Shown here piece by piece: positions 1 to 51,534 of a DNA stretch of 64,000 nt. The position numbers were made by a program, and so were the translations under genes. The DNA comes from Candidatus Muiribacterium halophilum (GTDB taxonomy: Bacteria > Muiribacteriota > Muiribacteriia > Muiribacteriales > Muiribacteriaceae). The notes under the pieces are model-generated. The model was not told where the DNA came from. It made no database searches and saw only the letters and a program-made list of their open reading frames with translations. The stretch covers positions 1-64,000 of the forward strand of contig PKTG01000130.1 in assembly GCA_002869225.1 (NCBI GenBank). Reading direction: 5' to 3'. Every line of letters begins with the position of its first letter. The first letter of the stretch is position 1.

Positions 1-1256
1 CCCTTTTTCACCTGACCCACATCTTTGATAAGCTTACCTTTTTCATCTGTTGTAAGACTATACCCTTTTGAGATGATATTCATAGGACTTAGAAGATTGA
101 GTTTCATCTTTAATCTATCAACTGTATCCTTCTTCTCTTTTAGATTCTCTAACATATATCTTTGTAGAGATTGTCTAAGATCATCCAGTTTCATATTAAG
201 TTCGTTAAAAGTCTTTTCTGTCTTCATAAGTCCGACAGATGCATTAGTAAGCCTCATCCTGTAATTCTCAAGCATAGATTTAGGTGATGATAATAGAATT
301 CTTCTATGGTTAATAAGTTGATATCTTTTTTCTGATACCACAGACATCAAGAGTTTTGATAGTCTACGTATAGAGAAATGTTGTAATTCTTTTTTTCTAA
401 TAAGAAGATTATTTTCAAGCATCCTGATAAGATGTCTCTTTAGATCACTAAGTCTTTTCCTTAACTCTCTTTTTTGTCTTACTAACATCTCTGCCGCAGC
501 TGTTGGAGTCTCTGCCCTTATATCTGCTACCATATCTGATATCAGAATATCTATCTCATGTCCTACTGCAGATATTACCGGAATCTTTGATTCAAACACC
601 GCTCTTGCGACTATCTCTTCATTGAAAGGCCATAGATCTTCAATTGATCCACCGCCTCTTCCTATTATAATAACGTCAACACGTCCATCTTCGTTTAAAG
701 CTTTTATACCTGCTACTATTTCACCTGCTGCTTCTTTCCCCTGAACCCTTGAGTTTTTAATTATCACATCAAAAAGCTCACCCTTTAGGATCTTGATCAT
801 ATCCTTAAACCCGGCAGCTTGCATTCCGCTAACAACACCTATCTTATTTACAATATCAGGAAGCTTTTTTTTATGTTCCGGCTCAAACAGTCCTTCCTTT
901 TTTAGTTTTGCTTTTAGTTCTTCAAACTTTCTTGCAAGAAGTCCAAAACCACTTTTTTCAAGATTTCTCACATAAAACTGATACTCACCTCTTGCGGTAT
1001 AAACTCCTATACTTCCATATATAAGAACATTATCACCGTTTTCTATTTTTGGAATATTTCCTTTATGATAACCTCTAAAATATACACATTTAATACTTGA
1101 CTGAGAATCTTTTACAGTAAAATATGCATGTCCAGATGGATATAATCTAAATCCTGATATCTCACCTTCAACAACGATATCATAAAGATTATGATCCTGT
1201 TCGATAAGACTTTTTATATATGAATTTAATTTGGTTACGGTTAAAATATCAGACAT
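1..1256 (-). CDS. xseA: Exodeoxyribonuclease VII large subunit (3' end beyond window)
   Basis: Manual translation of the minus strand from ATG at 1256: MSDILTVTKLNSYIKSLIEQDHNLYDIVVEGEISGFRLYPSGHAYFTVKD...VVSGMQAAGFKDMIKIL...IIIGRGGGSIEDLWPFNEEIVARAVFESKIPVISAVGHEIDILISDMVADIRAETPTAAAEM; classic XseA motifs. Absent from the ORF track because no stop lies in the window. Confidence 0.95.
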   Translation of the reverse strand, partial: MSDILTVTKLNSYIKSLIEQDHNLYDIVVEGEISGFRLYPSGHAYFTVKDSQSSIKCVYFRGYHKGNIPKIENGDNVLIYGSIGVYTARGEYQFYVRNLEKSGFGLLARKFEELKAKLKKEGLFEPEHKKKLPDIVNKIGVVSGMQAAGFKDMIKILKGELFDVIIKNSRVQGKEAAGEIVAGIKALNEDGRVDVIIIGRGGGSIEDLWPFNEEIVARAVFESKIPVISAVGHEIDILISDMVADIRAETPTAAAEMLVRQKRELRKRLSDLKRHLIRMLENNLLIRKKELQHFSIRRLSKLLMSVVSEKRYQLINHRRILLSSPKSMLENYRMRLTNASVGLMKTEKTFNELNMKLDDLRQSLQRYMLENLKEKKDTVDRLKMKLNLLSPMNIISKGYSLTTDEKGKLIKDVGQVKK

Positions 1257-2583
1257 TTTCTTCTAAAAACTTTGTTGTATATTTACCATTGGTAAATGTC
1301 TTATTATCCATTACCTTAGCATGAAAATCTGCAGTAGTAGAAAAACCTTCTACTTTGAATTCTGATAGCACTCTTTTCATCCTATTAATAGCTTCTTCTC
1401 TATCATTACCCCAGACAAGAAATTTGGCTACCATTGAATCATAATATGGTGGGATCTCATAACCGGAATATATAAACGAATCGATCCTTACATTTGGACC
1501 ACCAGGAAATATAAGCTGCTCTGCTTTTCCAGCATCTGGCATAAAGTTATTTTCAGGATCTTCTGCATTTATTCGACATTCGATAGCATGTCCATTGATC
1601 TTAATATCTTCCTGATCTATTGTTAGTTCTTCTCCAGCTGCTATTTTGATCTGCCATTTAACAAGGTCCTGATTACAGACCATCTCAGATACTCCATGTT
1701 CAACCTGCAATCTTGTATTCATCTCCATAAAAAAGAATTGACCTTTATCATAAAGAAATTCAAGGGTGCCAGCACCTTCATATTTGATCATTGCAGCGAG
1801 AGATGCTGCTCTTTTGCAGATATCCTCTCTCTGTGCATCATCTAGTACAGGACAAGGAGATTCTTCGATAAGTTTTTGATGTTTTCTTTGTACAGAACAA
1901 TCTCTTTCATATAGATAAAGGGCTTTTCCTTTACCATCACCTAGAACCTGAACTTCTATATGTTTTGGATTCTCAACAAATTTTTCAATATAAACATCAG
2001 GATTACCAAAAGCCGAAAGAGCTTCATTTTGAGCAATCTCAAAATAATGGGAAAGTTCTTTCAAATCTCTGGCGATTCTCATTCCTCTTCCACCACCACC
2101 GAAAGATGCTTTTATTATTACAGGAAACCCTACTTCCTTTGCTATGGTCTTTGCATCCTCAACATCTTTTACTGCACCTTCACTACCTGGCAAAACTGGA
2201 ACGGATGCTTCTCTTGCTATTCTTTTAGCCATTGCTTTGTCTGACATATTCATCATGGTGTTAAGAGATGGTCCAATAAATTTAATATCATGTGCCTCGC
2301 AGATCTCAACAAAATTCTGATTTTCTGATAAAAATCCATATCCAGGATGAATCGCCTCTGCTCCGGTTATCTGAGCTGCAGATATTATATTTGGAATATA
2401 TAGATAAGAATCAATACTCGCAGCTTCTCCTATACACACTGCTTCGTCTGCAAGCATACGATGAAGTGACATACTGTCCGCTTTTGAATAAACTGCAACA
2501 GTCTTTATCCCAAGCTCTTTACAAGCCCTTATGACTCTTATTGCTATCTCTCCTCTATTTGCTATAAGTATTTTATTAAACAT
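1249..2583 (-). CDS. accC: Biotin carboxylase subunit of acetyl-CoA carboxylase
   Basis: MFNKILIANRGEIAIRVIRACKELGI..., ATP-grasp GGGGRGMR, MEMNTRLQVEHGVSEM. Confidence 0.95.
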   Translation of the reverse strand: MFNKILIANRGEIAIRVIRACKELGIKTVAVYSKADSMSLHRMLADEAVCIGEAASIDSYLYIPNIISAAQITGAEAIHPGYGFLSENQNFVEICEAHDIKFIGPSLNTMMNMSDKAMAKRIAREASVPVLPGSEGAVKDVEDAKTIAKEVGFPVIIKASFGGGGRGMRIARDLKELSHYFEIAQNEALSAFGNPDVYIEKFVENPKHIEVQVLGDGKGKALYLYERDCSVQRKHQKLIEESPCPVLDDAQREDICKRAASLAAMIKYEGAGTLEFLYDKGQFFFMEMNTRLQVEHGVSEMVCNQDLVKWQIKIAAGEELTIDQEDIKINGHAIECRINAEDPENNFMPDAGKAEQLIFPGGPNVRIDSFIYSGYEIPPYYDSMVAKFLVWGNDREEAINRMKRVLSEFKVEGFSTTADFHAKVMDNKTFTNGKYTTKFLEENV

Positions 2584-2725: not shown

Positions 2726-3178
2726 CTAAATTGCCTCTACCTCATAGAGTGCCTGTCCATACTCTACCGGATCCGAATCATTAATATAAATATTTTTTAC
2801 TACCAGATCAAAAGGAGCAAACACATCATATACTACTTCCATAGATACAATATGTCCCATTCTTTCACCATGGGCTATTGTATCTCCTTCCTTTAATCTA
2901 TCTGGAGAATCAGGTGGATGTATAGAGAAATATTTTCCCACTCTATCCGCTTCAATAAAAACGTTTTTATCTTTATCATCTGATTTTTCAATTATATTTT
3001 TATTTTGTTCTATAATTTGGTTCTCATAGAGATCAGAAATAACAGGTTGAATCGGAATAGCTTTCTTTATTTTTAATTTCTTGCTATTTAATTCTAATTT
3101 TAAACTAGTTGCTTCGGACTCTTCAAATTTCTTTAATACATCTTTAATAAGTTTTGTATCTATACTTTTTTTACCCAT
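2726..3178 (-). CDS. BCCP-like (biotinyl/lipoyl domain) protein; biotin-acceptor Lys replaced by Glu
   Basis: Located just upstream of accC; C-terminal domain GDTIAHGERMGHIVSMEVVYDVFAPFDLVVKNIYINDSDPVEYGQALYEVE matches BCCP fold, but VSMEV in place of EAMKM. Confidence 0.85.
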   Translation of the reverse strand: MGKKSIDTKLIKDVLKKFEESEATSLKLELNSKKLKIKKAIPIQPVISDLYENQIIEQNKNIIEKSDDKDKNVFIEADRVGKYFSIHPPDSPDRLKEGDTIAHGERMGHIVSMEVVYDVFAPFDLVVKNIYINDSDPVEYGQALYEVEAI

Positions 3179-3782
3179 CTGATCTTTCCTCCATCCGGGA
3201 TATCTTTTTCAGAAAATCCTGAAGAGCAAATTCCGGATCTATATCTTTCTCTTTAGCTTTTAATACAATATCAAATAACTCTTTACCTATCAGTTCATTT
3301 TCATTCAGATCTTCATTTCCCAGTTTCTCTTCGATATTATTTGAAGTCGCATGTAACCTTTTAATCATCTTCGATGCTTTCATCAACGCTGGTAGCTTTG
3401 AAGGAATAGAATCAAGTACAGAACCTTTTTCTTTCTTTTTACTACTGTTCCATAACTTTAATACATCCTGAGCAGATTCTGCTTTTTCTTCTCCAAAGAC
3501 ATGAGGATGTCTTGTTATAAGTTTTGAACAAATACCTTTTTCAACATCTTCATAATCAAATAATTCTTCCTCTTCCGCGATCACAGCTTGAAATGCTATC
3601 TGCAAAAGAAGATCCCCCAGCTCTTCACAATGAGCTGAGGGGTCTTTACTATCTATTGCATCGATTACTTCATAAGCCTCTTCGATTGTAAACTCTTTTA
3701 ATGTTTCAAAAGTCTGCTGTTGATCCCAAGGGCAACCTTTATCAGACCTTAGAGTTCGCATTATATCTAATAGTTTTTTCAT
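3171..3782 (-). CDS. mazG: Nucleoside triphosphate pyrophosphohydrolase MazG
   Basis: LDIMRTLRSDKGCPWDQQQTFETLKEFTIEEAYEVIDAID...EELGDLLLQIAFQAVIAEE; MazG motif. Confidence 0.93.
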   Translation of the reverse strand: MKKLLDIMRTLRSDKGCPWDQQQTFETLKEFTIEEAYEVIDAIDSKDPSAHCEELGDLLLQIAFQAVIAEEEELFDYEDVEKGICSKLITRHPHVFGEEKAESAQDVLKLWNSSKKKEKGSVLDSIPSKLPALMKASKMIKRLHATSNNIEEKLGNEDLNENELIGKELFDIVLKAKEKDIDPEFALQDFLKKISRMEERSDG

Positions 3783-5434
3783 AGTTTGTCATAATGGTAC
3801 TTAACATCATAAGTACTTGAAAGATCTTTCATCAAAGCTTCAAAAGCATCAGCTTTCTTTTTCTGCTCAAGCTTTGCCTGAAGTCTATCTTTTATCTCTT
3901 CAAAGGATTTTTTCGTTATACTTTTAACTTTAAGAAGAGCAGCACCATTTGGAAGATTAACAAATCCAGTAGTTCCACCTTCTTTTATTGTTTTAAGTTT
4001 TTCTGCTATTTCAGGGAAAATATCACTTCTCATAAATTCTCCAAGATATCCAGTACCATCTTTTCCAGGATCATCTGAATATTCTTTTACAAGAGCTTCA
4101 AAACTTTCGCCTTTATTAAGTCTTTCCATAATCTCTTTTTTAAGTTTCTCTATCTGATCCATTGGATGATTCTGAATAGCAAGGAAAATATAATTTCCTT
4201 CAAATACTCTATTATTATCCTGATAATAAGCTTTTAACTCACCATCTTTAAGAGTTGAGTTTTTATTTACATAATCTTCAATATAAGCGTTATGAATAAA
4301 CTGATCTATACTATCCTTGATCTCATCAGAATCAGGTTTTATAACCTTTTTAGCCTCCATTAATAGTGCATCTTTTTCTGTCATTGATGCAAGTAATTTC
4401 TGACTATTATTATCTTTTTTATAAAAATCCTTCATATAATCAGGTAGATTTTTCATCTCATTATCAAGTTGTTCCTGTCTAACTGCAGGTTTACCATTGA
4501 TTGTTGAGAGAACATCTCCAGATTTTTCATATGAAATATTATATTTTTTAAGGATTCCATCTTTCCACTCATTAAAAGCATCTCCCTGCTTTTCACTTGA
4601 AAGATTCTTTCTGATATCTTCTTTAACACTATCAAAATTTTTACTTCCTGCAGCTTTTTTACCAGTAAGGTAAATCAAATGCCAACCGAATCTTGTCTTA
4701 ACTGGATCTGATATTTCACCTTCTTTCATAGCAAACGCTGCATCAGCGAAAGGTTTTACCATTCTATCTTTTGTGAAGAATCCAAGATCTCCACCTCTTG
4801 CTTTTGAAGGACATGTAGAATACTGTTTTGCAGCATCTTCAAATTTAACCTCTCCACTTTCTATCTTCTTTTTAAGATCAACTAATTTCTTTCTGTTTTC
4901 TTCACCTTCAGGAAGTAAAATATGTGATGCTTTAACCTCAGCTTCCTGTTTGAACTTGTCCTGATTATCATCAAAATATTTTTTACAGTCTTCATCAGAA
5001 GCTTTTGTTGACTGATTTATTTCCTGTCTTTTTTCTCCCATAAAACGTTCTAAGATAAGACTTTCTCTTGTCTTTTCTATTCTATCCTTGATCTTATCTC
5101 TATAATTTTCTTTATCTATTCTTCTACCAGCTAATTTAAAATTAACATATCTTTCCAGAAGTTTTTTCTTTCCTTCAGGGTCCTTAAGTAATCTCACTCT
5201 GTACATTGGCGGAATCTTTTCAATTTCTTTATCAAATTCTGCTACAGTTACTTTACCATCTTTATATTCTGCAAGAACCGCATTTGGATCTTTTTCTGTC
5301 TTCATTGTATCTACCCCTTTTTTTGTTATTTTATTTGGCGTAGATGCATCAGCAGACTTTTTTGTTGCGTCGCATGCAACAAGACTTAACATAGAAATTG
5401 TAATGACTAATACAACAGCAAGCTTTTTTAACAT
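3779..5434 (-). CDS. Parvulin-type peptidyl-prolyl isomerase lipoprotein (SurA/PrsA-like)
   Basis: Lipobox LVAC; parvulin motif VKASHILLPEGEENRKKLVDLKKKIESGEVKFEDAAKQYSTCPSKARGGDLGFFTKDRMVKPFADAAFAMKEGEISDPVKTRFGWHLIYL; second SurA-like region. Confidence 0.9.
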   Translation of the reverse strand: MLKKLAVVLVITISMLSLVACDATKKSADASTPNKITKKGVDTMKTEKDPNAVLAEYKDGKVTVAEFDKEIEKIPPMYRVRLLKDPEGKKKLLERYVNFKLAGRRIDKENYRDKIKDRIEKTRESLILERFMGEKRQEINQSTKASDEDCKKYFDDNQDKFKQEAEVKASHILLPEGEENRKKLVDLKKKIESGEVKFEDAAKQYSTCPSKARGGDLGFFTKDRMVKPFADAAFAMKEGEISDPVKTRFGWHLIYLTGKKAAGSKNFDSVKEDIRKNLSSEKQGDAFNEWKDGILKKYNISYEKSGDVLSTINGKPAVRQEQLDNEMKNLPDYMKDFYKKDNNSQKLLASMTEKDALLMEAKKVIKPDSDEIKDSIDQFIHNAYIEDYVNKNSTLKDGELKAYYQDNNRVFEGNYIFLAIQNHPMDQIEKLKKEIMERLNKGESFEALVKEYSDDPGKDGTGYLGEFMRSDIFPEIAEKLKTIKEGGTTGFVNLPNGAALLKVKSITKKSFEEIKDRLQAKLEQKKKADAFEALMKDLSSTYDVKYHYDKL

Positions 5435-46869: not shown

Positions 46870-46962
46870 ACCAATTTAGTAAAACAGAAAACAATTTTAT
46901 TTTCAAGCAAAACAGGATAATCTCCGATAATAATGATGTGTAATAGGTGGAGGTTGTTAATT

Positions 46963-49900
46963 ATGAAAAAAAACACATATTATTTTTTCTCAATTTTATC
47001 GCTTTTGATATTTTTAGTTATCATCTCGATAGGTTGTGGTGGAGGTTCTGAATTAACTATTCCTGCAAAAGAAGTAGTTATCAGACCTAGTTCTCCTGTT
47101 TCCGGAGAGATCATCAATCTATATACAGAGACAGCGGAAATATCATGGTATGCTTCAAAAGAAGTAGAATTTTTCAACGTTTATGTAAACGGTGTATTGA
47201 AAAAAACAATTTCAGAAAATGAATACTCAACAAGTGAAGTAACTACTAATAATCAAAAGATTTCCTATAAATTAAATGATCTTAAAAAAGATAGTTCTTA
47301 TATAATATCAGTTAAATCCTTAAGCAGTAAAGGTGTAGAATCTGATAAATCAATGATATTTCAGATAAACACTATCGAAAGTGCATCTATACCTGTACCA
47401 CCAAAATCATTAACCTTTGTATCAAGTACACTTAGTTCAGCTAAAATTAATTTTAACGAAGGGCAATATGCTGCAAAATATCAAATTTATATTGACGGTT
47501 TACCATATACTCTCGATAGCAAACCCGTTTACATCTTTAAAGCAGGCACCTATGAGATATTAAATCTTAACGCATCAACTGATTATGATATTACGATCAA
47601 ATCCATCAACGGTTATGGTTATTCAGACACCTCAGAAGTCCTCGAGATCTCCACCGGATCATCTCCTTCTAAACCTACCATTCCTGTTGTTGGTACTTTG
47701 CTTGATAAATCAGTAAATATACAATGGAGCAGTGTTTTAAACGCAACCAAATATTTTGTTTATATAGCAAACATCTCAGCAGACCCTAACGCACAACTCT
47801 CCTTATATTCAACGGTTACAAACACAACCGCTATAATATCTAATCTTAGTCGTGGAACTACATATGATATTGCTATAAAAGCGTGGAATAAATACGGTGA
47901 CTCTCCATATTCAGATACTATTGAGATCACAACAAAAAATATTCCTTCTACACCAACCGGATTAGCATTTACTGAATTGACCTTGACTAGTTTTAAAATA
48001 AGCTGGCCATCAGTATCAACTGCTGATTCATACAAAATATATAAAAACGGTCTTTTTTATGCATCTGTAAATGCATCAGCAAGTACTCCATCCTACACGT
48101 TGGGAAGTCTTTCTTCAGACTCGACATATGAAATACAGGTTTCTTCAGTAAATGAGTTTGGTGAATCGGATAAATCCACAAAAGAATACGTACACACCCT
48201 TTCAGAAGATGGTGACCCACCTGCTATACCTGCTGGTTTTACGATAACACCATCTAATATTAAACCTACATCGATGATAATAACATGGACGACTGTCCCT
48301 GAGACATCAAATTATCGAGTATATTATAATGATGTTTACGGTAATACCAATAATACATCATATCAGATTGATAATCTTACCCCGGATACATCTTATACTA
48401 TTGGGATTGAAGCCTATAATGATTTTGGTTACACTACTAAACAGACTACAACTGTTTCTACATTATCCGAACCATTACCAGTTGAATCTATTGAAGTTGA
48501 ATCAAAAAGTAAAAACTTTATAAAAATAAATTGGTCAGAAGCAGACGGAGCGAACAAGTATTTTGTTTATTGTAGAAGAACAGCACCTACAACTGCTGTA
48601 ATTACTGAGGATACTGTAGAAGTTACAACCTACTCCTTCTCTGGTCTGACTTCAGGAGCTACTTTTGAGATAACTATTTATTCATCATATAATTCAAATA
48701 GACAGACAAGTATAAATAGCGGTAGTAATGAAAATCAGATATATGTCTTCACCCCAAGCACTCCGGATACACCAATAATATCAGGAGCAACAAATATATC
48801 ACAAAATTCTGCAGATGTTACATGGGGATCCGTTTCAAATGCAGATTATTATAATGTATATAGAAAACGAATTCTTACCGAATCGACTTATTCACTTGCA
48901 TCAGGTTCAGGTACATCTCTTACAACAACTACACTTAGTATAGATTCTCTTACTGTAGATTCAACATATGAGATATTGGTTACTGCAGTATCAATAACAC
49001 CAACAGGCGAACATCTTGAATCAGCAGTTCAGACAAATGCTTTATCCTTTAAGACATTACCAAATATTCCAAACCCACCAAATAATCTAAGGTATGATGG
49101 ACTTACAAAGGATACAGATGAAATCTTTGTATATTGGGAAAGACCAAGTTCTACCGATTATTATTACGTTTATGCACCAGGACATAACCCTGAAAGACAA
49201 AAAGTATTAACTGAATTTGTAAGATTAGATGACTGGTCTCCAAGTCCAGGTAGTATCATTCCAACTTCAACTACAATTGAAGTAAGTGCATACAATTATT
49301 TTGATTTAAATTCAGGTACTTCAGAGATTTTGATACCTCTTGATGAACTTACTACACCAGTTATCGGAATTCCTTATCCAGATGCAGTTAATACTGACAC
49401 ACAGATGTACGTTGAATGGGATACAACTGAGATATCAACTGCTTATTCATATATTATTAAACTTTACGATGATGATGCAGCTTCATATGTAGTTTTAGAT
49501 AACGGACAGGAAGAAAAAGCATTAAATAACAAATATTATACTTTTACTAATCTAACTTCAGATAACAACTATACAGTTGAAGTTAAAAAGATTAAGAACG
49601 GTAAAGGAGAATCATTTACCGCAAGTAAATCATTTGCAACTAATTCAGCTCCTGATACCGTAGTATTTGAAGCTATCACTCTAGCAGATTATAGTACAAA
49701 AGAGATAATAATAAATTGGGATAGTGCAACACCACATGCACTACTTGCAGATTATAATACAGATACATTTGAGATCTATGCGAAACAAAGCACATCAACA
49801 ACATGGAAATTAATAGCAGAAGTAGAAGATGATGACATTGATACAGGTGGAAACAATCCTGCATTCACTTATACTATGAACAAACTCGGTGATACAGGAG

Positions 49901-51534
49901 CTGCTCCACCACTTTCGGCCGATACAACTTATGATATAAGAGTTGTTGCTAAGAATTCAATAGCTTCAAGGACTACTACTTTAGAAGATACTTACAAAAC
50001 AGATTATGCTGTTGATACTCCTTATAACCTTACCGTTCTTGACAAAGGTCTGGATTTTATATATCTAAGTTGGGAAATCGATTCCTTTATGTCTAATAAT
50101 GATCGTCCTGATACTTTCGTTGTAGAATGGGATACAGGTAGCAGAGTCGTATCTGGAGATACATACGAGATCTATATTGGCAGCCTTTTTAGCAGTACTA
50201 CATATAATATAAATGTAACTTCTGTTAATCCAACTGATACAGATCATGCAGTAAGTACCCCTACAAAAGCAGTCAAGACAGGTTCTATTCCAGATGTACC
50301 AATAATTACTGCAATAGATGAGATCACTTCTTCTTCAATGAAAATAGATTGGTCAGAAGGAAGTTTTACAGACTATTATATAGTTAGATTAACTGACGGA
50401 ACAAACGAGATCACCTCTAACGAGTTATCAGCTGTAACCGAATATACTATGACCGGTCTTGACTATAGAACAACTTACACTGTGGAAGTACAGGCTTATA
50501 ACACTTACGGATACAATAGTGGAGAGGCATCGAAAAAAATCACAACAAAAGCTAAATTCGATGTTTTTGAAGATAAGATAACAGGTGGTGCGATAAATAC
50601 CTCATCTCCATATAACCCTTATATTAGTGTTGCACCAAATGGTGATGTTGTATTTTCAAAACCTGGAAATATTGGAGATGGAACTGAACTTGTTTATAAG
50701 ATCTCTTCCGGTTCGACATCAATCACTGATATTACTTTAATACCTAACCCGGATGGAGGAGCTGATCCAACAGGTATTTGTATAAATGGATCAAATATTT
50801 ATTCAAATATACAAAGCACAGCATTAAATTTCCCTCATGCATTTACAGTAGCTGGTGGTAATGATGGTTCTACTGATGCTTATAATCTGATTTTGGATAC
50901 TATTGCTACCTCATGGGGAAATTCATATGATTTGATCTGGGATGAAACAAACACCTCGTTATATGCTATAAGTGAATATGGTGGAGATGCTGACCCTGAT
51001 CTTATTAAACTCAATGATATAGACGGTGCTGGAGATGGTTCACTTGAGATAGAGGTAGTTGCAACTGATACAGGTGCACAAAACCTTGCTTTAGACGAAG
51101 ATGGTTATCTGTTAGTGGCTAATCCAACTACAAAGATCATATCAATTTATGATACTAATAATATATCATCTACCCCAATTGGAACAATAAACCTCTCATC
51201 ATTCACTATAGATGGAGTATATGGTATGGCAACAAACTTTGATGGAACAACAAAATATCTTGTTGTCGCATGTGGCAATAAAATACTATTTTATTCTGGA
51301 ACCGGTTCGAGTTATACAAACGACCCAGACCTTACTTTAGATTCATCAAATCCATATACAACTACGGACCCAGATGATGGTCTATCAAGCGGATTCTCTA
51401 TTAGTGGAACAACTGTAGGAACAGGCGGACCAAGTAATGCTCGTGGTATAGCTACTCTTGAAAGTGGAGCAACGCCAGTATATATAGTAATTGATAGTGG
51501 AAATAACCAGATCATTAAAATCAAAGAATTTTAA
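46963..51534 (+). CDS. Large multi-Fn3 lipoprotein with C-terminal beta-propeller-like region
   Basis: MKKNTYYFFSILSLLIFLVIISIGCGGGS lipobox; ~12 Fn3-like repeats (YEIQVSSVNEFGES, YTIGIEAYNDFGY...); RBS GGTGGAGG. Start chosen at internal Met 46963. Confidence 0.9.
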   Translation: MKKNTYYFFSILSLLIFLVIISIGCGGGSELTIPAKEVVIRPSSPVSGEIINLYTETAEISWYASKEVEFFNVYVNGVLKKTISENEYSTSEVTTNNQKISYKLNDLKKDSSYIISVKSLSSKGVESDKSMIFQINTIESASIPVPPKSLTFVSSTLSSAKINFNEGQYAAKYQIYIDGLPYTLDSKPVYIFKAGTYEILNLNASTDYDITIKSINGYGYSDTSEVLEISTGSSPSKPTIPVVGTLLDKSVNIQWSSVLNATKYFVYIANISADPNAQLSLYSTVTNTTAIISNLSRGTTYDIAIKAWNKYGDSPYSDTIEITTKNIPSTPTGLAFTELTLTSFKISWPSVSTADSYKIYKNGLFYASVNASASTPSYTLGSLSSDSTYEIQVSSVNEFGESDKSTKEYVHTLSEDGDPPAIPAGFTITPSNIKPTSMIITWTTVPETSNYRVYYNDVYGNTNNTSYQIDNLTPDTSYTIGIEAYNDFGYTTKQTTTVSTLSEPLPVESIEVESKSKNFIKINWSEADGANKYFVYCRRTAPTTAVITEDTVEVTTYSFSGLTSGATFEITIYSSYNSNRQTSINSGSNENQIYVFTPSTPDTPIISGATNISQNSADVTWGSVSNADYYNVYRKRILTESTYSLASGSGTSLTTTTLSIDSLTVDSTYEILVTAVSITPTGEHLESAVQTNALSFKTLPNIPNPPNNLRYDGLTKDTDEIFVYWERPSSTDYYYVYAPGHNPERQKVLTEFVRLDDWSPSPGSIIPTSTTIEVSAYNYFDLNSGTSEILIPLDELTTPVIGIPYPDAVNTDTQMYVEWDTTEISTAYSYIIKLYDDDAASYVVLDNGQEEKALNNKYYTFTNLTSDNNYTVEVKKIKNGKGESFTASKSFATNSAPDTVVFEAITLADYSTKEIIINWDSATPHALLADYNTDTFEIYAKQSTSTTWKLIAEVEDDDIDTGGNNPAFTYTMNKLGDTGAAPPLSADTTYDIRVVAKNSIASRTTTLEDTYKTDYAVDTPYNLTVLDKGLDFIYLSWEIDSFMSNNDRPDTFVVEWDTGSRVVSGDTYEIYIGSLFSSTTYNINVTSVNPTDTDHAVSTPTKAVKTGSIPDVPIITAIDEITSSSMKIDWSEGSFTDYYIVRLTDGTNEITSNELSAVTEYTMTGLDYRTTYTVEVQAYNTYGYNSGEASKKITTKAKFDVFEDKITGGAINTSSPYNPYISVAPNGDVVFSKPGNIGDGTELVYKISSGSTSITDITLIPNPDGGADPTGICINGSNIYSNIQSTALNFPHAFTVAGGNDGSTDAYNLILDTIATSWGNSYDLIWDETNTSLYAISEYGGDADPDLIKLNDIDGAGDGSLEIEVVATDTGAQNLALDEDGYLLVANPTTKIISIYDTNNISSTPIGTINLSSFTIDGVYGMATNFDGTTKYLVVACGNKILFYSGTGSSYTNDPDLTLDSSNPYTTTDPDDGLSSGFSISGTTVGTGGPSNARGIATLESGATPVYIVIDSGNNQIIKIKEF

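Follow-up and report, generated by a model that had tools for sequence, protein, structure and literature searches.

The window, by which we mean the whole stretch of 64,000 nucleotides analysed here, encodes a protein resembling BCCP, the biotin-carrying subunit of acetyl-CoA carboxylase (ACC). The BCCP-like gene is located directly upstream of a complete accC, i.e. in the accB position (Table 1), and TIGR00514 (accC) matched the AccC of the window with 686 bits, at a cut-off of 626. The residues V111-S112-M113-E114-V115 occupy the place where BCCPs carry E-A-M-K-L/M. The plus strand reads TTC at the acceptor codon, corresponding to GAA on the minus strand; the claim of the initial annotation, that the BCCP beside accC has Glu (E114) at the biotin-acceptor Lys position, was thereby read directly from the DNA. 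Elsewhere in the window (46933-51534), we observed by eye a 1533-aa ORF whose product starts like a lipoprotein and contains many fibronectin-III-like repeats.

Table 1. Genes and protein features at the accC locus of the window.
Feature	Position	Strand	Basis or remark
xseA-like gene (exodeoxyribonuclease VII large subunit), downstream of accC and truncated by the contig end	1..1256	minus	named by eye
accC, biotin carboxylase subunit, complete, motifs VIIKASFGGGGRG and MEMNTRLQVEH	1249..2583	minus	ORF, TIGR00514, motifs
Lys-less BCCP-like protein, 150 aa (N-terminal helix and hairpin, linker, C-terminal biotinyl domain)	2726..3178	minus	ORF, TIGR00531 profile match, AlphaFold2
V138-E139-Y140-G141-Q142	2753..2767	minus	alignment; within the same groups, all Lys-less and none of the Lys-bearing copies have the aromatic
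Glu114 codon (GAA) in place of the biotin-acceptor Lys, at the 106-112/115-120 hairpin turn	2837..2839	minus	sequence, alignment, AlphaFold2
N-terminal region, residues 8-38 (helix 8-20, strands 25-30 and 33-38)	3065..3157	minus	predicted structure, conservation; ungapped in the family
MazG-like pyrophosphohydrolase gene, overlaps the start of the BCCP-like gene	3171..3782	minus	named by eye; same order in ADurb.Bin243-type relatives
SurA/PpiC-like gene, upstream of mazG	3779..5434	minus	named by eye; same order in relatives L050, L051 and L059

Judged from profile and fold comparisons, the window protein is a BCCP homologue over its full length. TIGR00531 matched residues 7-148 (8.5e-12) with 45.8 bits, below its cut-off of 115.2, and Pfam Biotin_lipoyl scored 21.9, marginally below its cut-off of 22.1. 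The profile of the family found 4hr7 (E. coli BCCP in the BCCP-BC crystal) as the top PDB match over the whole length, at 2.6e-33. The AlphaFold2 model, calculated from an alignment of eight sequences (the window protein and relatives), contains a biotinyl domain at residues 71-150 with pLDDT of 82-92. The domain is preceded by helix 8-20, strands 25-30 and 33-38, and a disordered linker; the nearest PDB folds are 1bdo and 4hr7, both E. coli BCCP. In the model, M113-E114 lies at the hairpin turn, the site of biotin in BCCPs. The N-terminal region of BCCPs presumably docks on biotin carboxylase. Of the hallmarks of a catalytic AccB, the protein has this region and the predicted biotinyl-domain fold; Glu114 stands in place of the Lys of the (A/S)MK(L/M/V/I) hairpin, and the TIGR00531 cut-off is not reached. 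Since the acceptor Lys is required for biotinylation, which Lys553Ala abolished in the BCCP domain from Chloroflexus (PMC11077971), the Lys-less protein should be unable to carry carboxybiotin.

We searched 40 genomes of the same phylum and read the matches. The accC-adjacent BCCP is without the acceptor Lys in 35 of the 40, and none of these orthologues (0/35) carried it. The replacing residue is Asn (e.g. AMNIE, SMNLK, SLNST, AINVP), Ser (GISFQ), Gln (SMQLR), Gly (CLGID) or, in the window, Glu. Relatives with AMKM at this position, which the initial annotation regarded as a sign of a local mutation or error, did not occur among the same-phylum genes in this place; such a mutation or error is ruled out by relatives that lack Lys and carry different residues. 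An ACC-type accC was not found in the remaining five of the 40 genomes, namely two of family f3 and three assemblies of 64-75% completeness without a detected accC. Family f3 (G002 and G007) has no full-length AccA, no ACC-type AccC and neither BCCP. We observed only decarboxylase- or PCC-like carriers, and no acetyl-CoA-carboxylase-type BCCP, in these two genomes and in G382-G385 (family f253). In one genome (L045:831-2107, G020:C684), the accC adjoining the Lys-less gene runs over two overlapping frames, which an assembly frameshift would probably explain.

A second, Lys-bearing AccB is encoded elsewhere in 32/40 genomes; among them are all genomes with this accC whose completeness reaches 90% (20 genomes). 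Twenty-two genomes encoding both proteins gave a single AccC-like match at E ≤ 1e-60, and no second accC for the Lys-bearing AccB was found in them; therefore, the same AccC must deal with both BCCPs, the biotinylated AccB included. The Lys-bearing gene repeatedly adjoins a dihydrolipoamide-dehydrogenase-like gene (L061:4079-5934, which is G000:C119, and L073, L080, L085, L086). Unusually for accB, it lies near gcvT/gcvH/gcvP-like genes in the window's genome and G005. The Lys-bearing AccB of genus g16 (L143, L148, L149) has SSCKNLNEI for EAMKLMNEI, with Lys kept and the flanking Met and Glu changed.

The assembly to which the window belongs comprises 2.93 Mb in 148 contigs and is 89% complete. 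It encodes a canonical AccB on contig C119 (ESMKLMNEI; TIGR00531, 136.7 bits, above the cut-off), AccA and AccD from neighbouring genes on C51, and the biotin ligase birA on C138 (TIGR00121 above the cut-off, GRGRYNDRKW). The second accB with Lys, birA and accA/accD, for which the initial annotation had proposed a search, are thus all present, and by its gene content the genome holds a complete ACC set even without the Lys-less protein. Two options had been offered, a BCCP-like subunit in the accB position with a putative regulatory or scaffolding role, or an AccC that works with another BCCP elsewhere; with the canonical AccB on C119, the evidence fits both together. Two further loci were identified: C3 is PCC-like, with a biotin carboxylase having its own EAMKM carrier and a carboxyltransferase, and C74 is sodium-pump-decarboxylase-like, with one more Lys-bearing carrier.

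In a survey of the same domain, two Brevinematales genomes (Spirochaetota) were among the best matches, and their class was searched. A Lys-less copy was present in 13/18 Brevinematia genomes from four families, always with Gly (VLG), and 12 of these 13 encode a Lys-bearing AccB elsewhere. The Lys-less gene adjoins accC in families f25, f254 and f255, where accC fell within the stretch read; in f256, accC lies outside it. As a control, we took the best-matching BCCP from other phyla, one protein per genome, a sampling that would miss additional Lys-less copies in those genomes. Lys was kept in 78/78, of which 71 were encoded beside accC. Because 35/35 accC-adjacent BCCPs of the phylum lack Lys versus 0/78 in other phyla, its loss exceeds what chance would give. 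In another phylum, an accC-adjacent BCCP on a long branch (L058:6356-6787, G054) has Lys in the divergent motif AMKIRHDI, possibly an intermediate state.

Pairwise dN/dS values of the Lys-less gene within genera were mostly 0.06-0.3, the same range as for the Lys-bearing paralog, and reached 0.49 in genus g11; the very close pair G006-G013 (dS 0.02) was uninformative. By these ratios the Lys-less genes are under purifying selection, and a pseudogene is ruled out by dN/dS and the intact frames. After removal of the acceptor columns, the tree placed the Lys-less proteins of the phylum apart from the Lys-bearing ones and counted two changes in the Lys-less label. AU tests rejected neither one origin for the phylum (p = 0.49) nor one shared with Brevinematia (p = 0.49). 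We must also note that the copy in the window sits on a long branch (3.45 changes per column), meaning that it may have drifted more than most.

Column comparison between the groups indicated that the Lys-less copies keep the ungapped N-terminal region, the VG-F start of the domain and its V-E-Y/F-G end. The N-terminal region is kept in the Lys-bearing copy too. The aromatic residue of VE(Y/F)G was found in 48/48 Lys-less copies versus 0/44 Lys-bearing ones of the phylum and Brevinematia. At the position of E. coli Phe148, the counts for the phylum were 35/35 and 0/32, and 18 of 19 other BCCPs were aromatic there, the exception being a Lys-bearing copy from Brevinematia; the class search carried out afterwards gave 13/13 Lys-less versus 0/12 Lys-bearing. 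The single BCCPs of other phyla have both the Lys motif and the VE(Y/F)G aromatic. The thumb segment, from VG to the next conserved Gly, usually has 17-18 residues; it has 10-14 in 21/35 Lys-less copies, whereas it was shortened in 0/32 and had 18 residues in 32/32 Lys-bearing ones. Among the sequence features, the split of the VE(Y/F)G aromatic hints most specifically that the two copies may divide an ancestral task. Tentatively, and with slightly more doubt than confidence, we propose that an ancestral BCCP was duplicated into two specialised subunits. One would keep the AccC-holding surface, including the VE(Y/F)G aromatic, without biotin, and the other would keep biotin without the surface, so that ACC would need both. 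We know of no bacterium with a two-part carrier of this kind.

Plant BADC proteins lack the biotinylation motif and help to assemble BC-BCCP; they are 25-30% identical to BCCP and have been called unique to the plant enzyme (PMC11926652, 2025). Like Arabidopsis BADC1-3, which are BCCP paralogs without the AMKL motif and coexist with the catalytic BCCPs of a heteromeric ACC, the protein described here is a BCCP paralog without the biotinylation motif. It coexists with a biotinylatable BCCP, BC, CT-alpha, CT-beta and biotin ligase, where birA and accD were examined in the window's genome only. Unlike plant BADC, the present proteins are bacterial, are encoded beside accC in place of accB and occur in two bacterial groups. 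Moreover, their acceptor-position residue varies by lineage, and their binding and function are putative, the likeness being one of gene content. The Lys-less protein thus looks like a bacterial BADC by gene content, with no claim of membership in the plant BADC family, and from the distribution we assume a separate origin. With bacterial AccB/BCCP (TIGR00531; E. coli AccB, 1bdo, 4hr7) it shares length, N-terminal helix-hairpin, biotinyl-domain fold and the position upstream of accC; it differs in the missing acceptor Lys, in the thumb often shortened within the family, and in the TIGR00531 score given above. The non-catalytic subunits of actinobacterial acyl-CoA carboxylases are likewise bacterial and are said to be holoenzyme glue (cited in PMC11926652). 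They are set apart in that the passage citing them does not describe them as BCCP paralogs.

Taking gene content and conservation together, we consider the non-biotinylatable paralog to be probably a non-catalytic, BADC-like ACC subunit, which would scaffold or limit the AccC-BCCP core while the other AccB carries carboxybiotin. The Lys-less protein would bind AccC, and possibly also the other AccB, via the N-terminal helix-hairpin and the VE(Y/F)G face of the biotinyl domain. A mixed AccC:BCCP-like:AccB core would result, in which the transfer of carboxybiotin between AccC and AccAD would fall to the Lys-bearing AccB alone; assembly or activity would be set by the proportion of the two BCCPs. 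This working principle would be the one reported for plant BADC proteins. Co-occurrence with ACC supports a role there, as family f3, without ACC-type AccC and full-length AccA, is also without both BCCPs. It counts against this explanation that the Lys-bearing AccB, having kept its N-terminal region, could bind AccC unaided, and so does the long branch of the window's copy. As regards a scaffold or a brake, the genome data appear to fit either.

The same genome facts would also suit a protein acting mainly as an inhibitor or dosage regulator, which would compete with biotinylated AccB for AccC; with its gene beside accC, the supply of AccC would come with its own brake. The gene order and spacing point to co-expression with accC, and in vivo work read plant BADCs as inhibitors, as PMC11926652 notes. 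We nevertheless regard it as unlikely, because a protein that occurs in all ACC-bearing genomes of the phylum is more readily understood as an obligatory subunit than as an optional brake, and the shared-out motifs suggest division of labour over simple competition. Control of accC operon transcription through the N-terminal part, with the biotin site irrelevant and lost, appears considerably less probable still. In E. coli, autoregulation of accBC by the N-terminal part of AccB has been reported. The ungapped N-terminal region and the location of the gene in the operon to be controlled agree with such a role, but an N-terminal regulator would not need the C-terminal biotinyl domain, which keeps its predicted fold and its conserved motifs.

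Two other explanations are highly improbable. The genome has a lipoate-ligase-like gene, which would be in line with a carrier of another prosthetic group or with another acceptor (e.g. lipoyl, or another nearby Lys). However, there is no conserved Lys at or next to the hairpin turn, where the window has M-E-V and relatives have M-N-I, G-I-S, V-L-G and M-Q-L; an alternative acceptor Lys was rejected, none being conserved in the alignment. Least probable of all is that the gene is a relic in decay, or that the Lys codon was misread in sequencing or assembly. GAA is one base from AAA and the window protein is divergent, but Lys is absent from all relatives with differing residues in its place, dN/dS lies far below 1, nearly all genomes have an intact ORF, and Brevinematia, a second lineage, has the same pattern.

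Our search of freely accessible papers found no report of a Lys-less bacterial BCCP. As read from the genomes, in a little-known phylum and one spirochaete class the biotin-carrying subunit of ACC exists as two proteins, the accC-adjacent one without Lys and the other predicted to bear biotin. Acetyl-CoA carboxylase commits carbon to fatty acids. Non-biotinylated BCCP paralogs have been described as a plant speciality whose role, inhibitor or assembly glue, is disputed. The bacterial counterparts, present in every ACC-bearing genome seen of the phylum and sharing out conserved motifs with a biotinylated partner, offer a simpler system for this question, and the position of E. coli Phe148 provides one testable residue for a role separate from biotin transfer.
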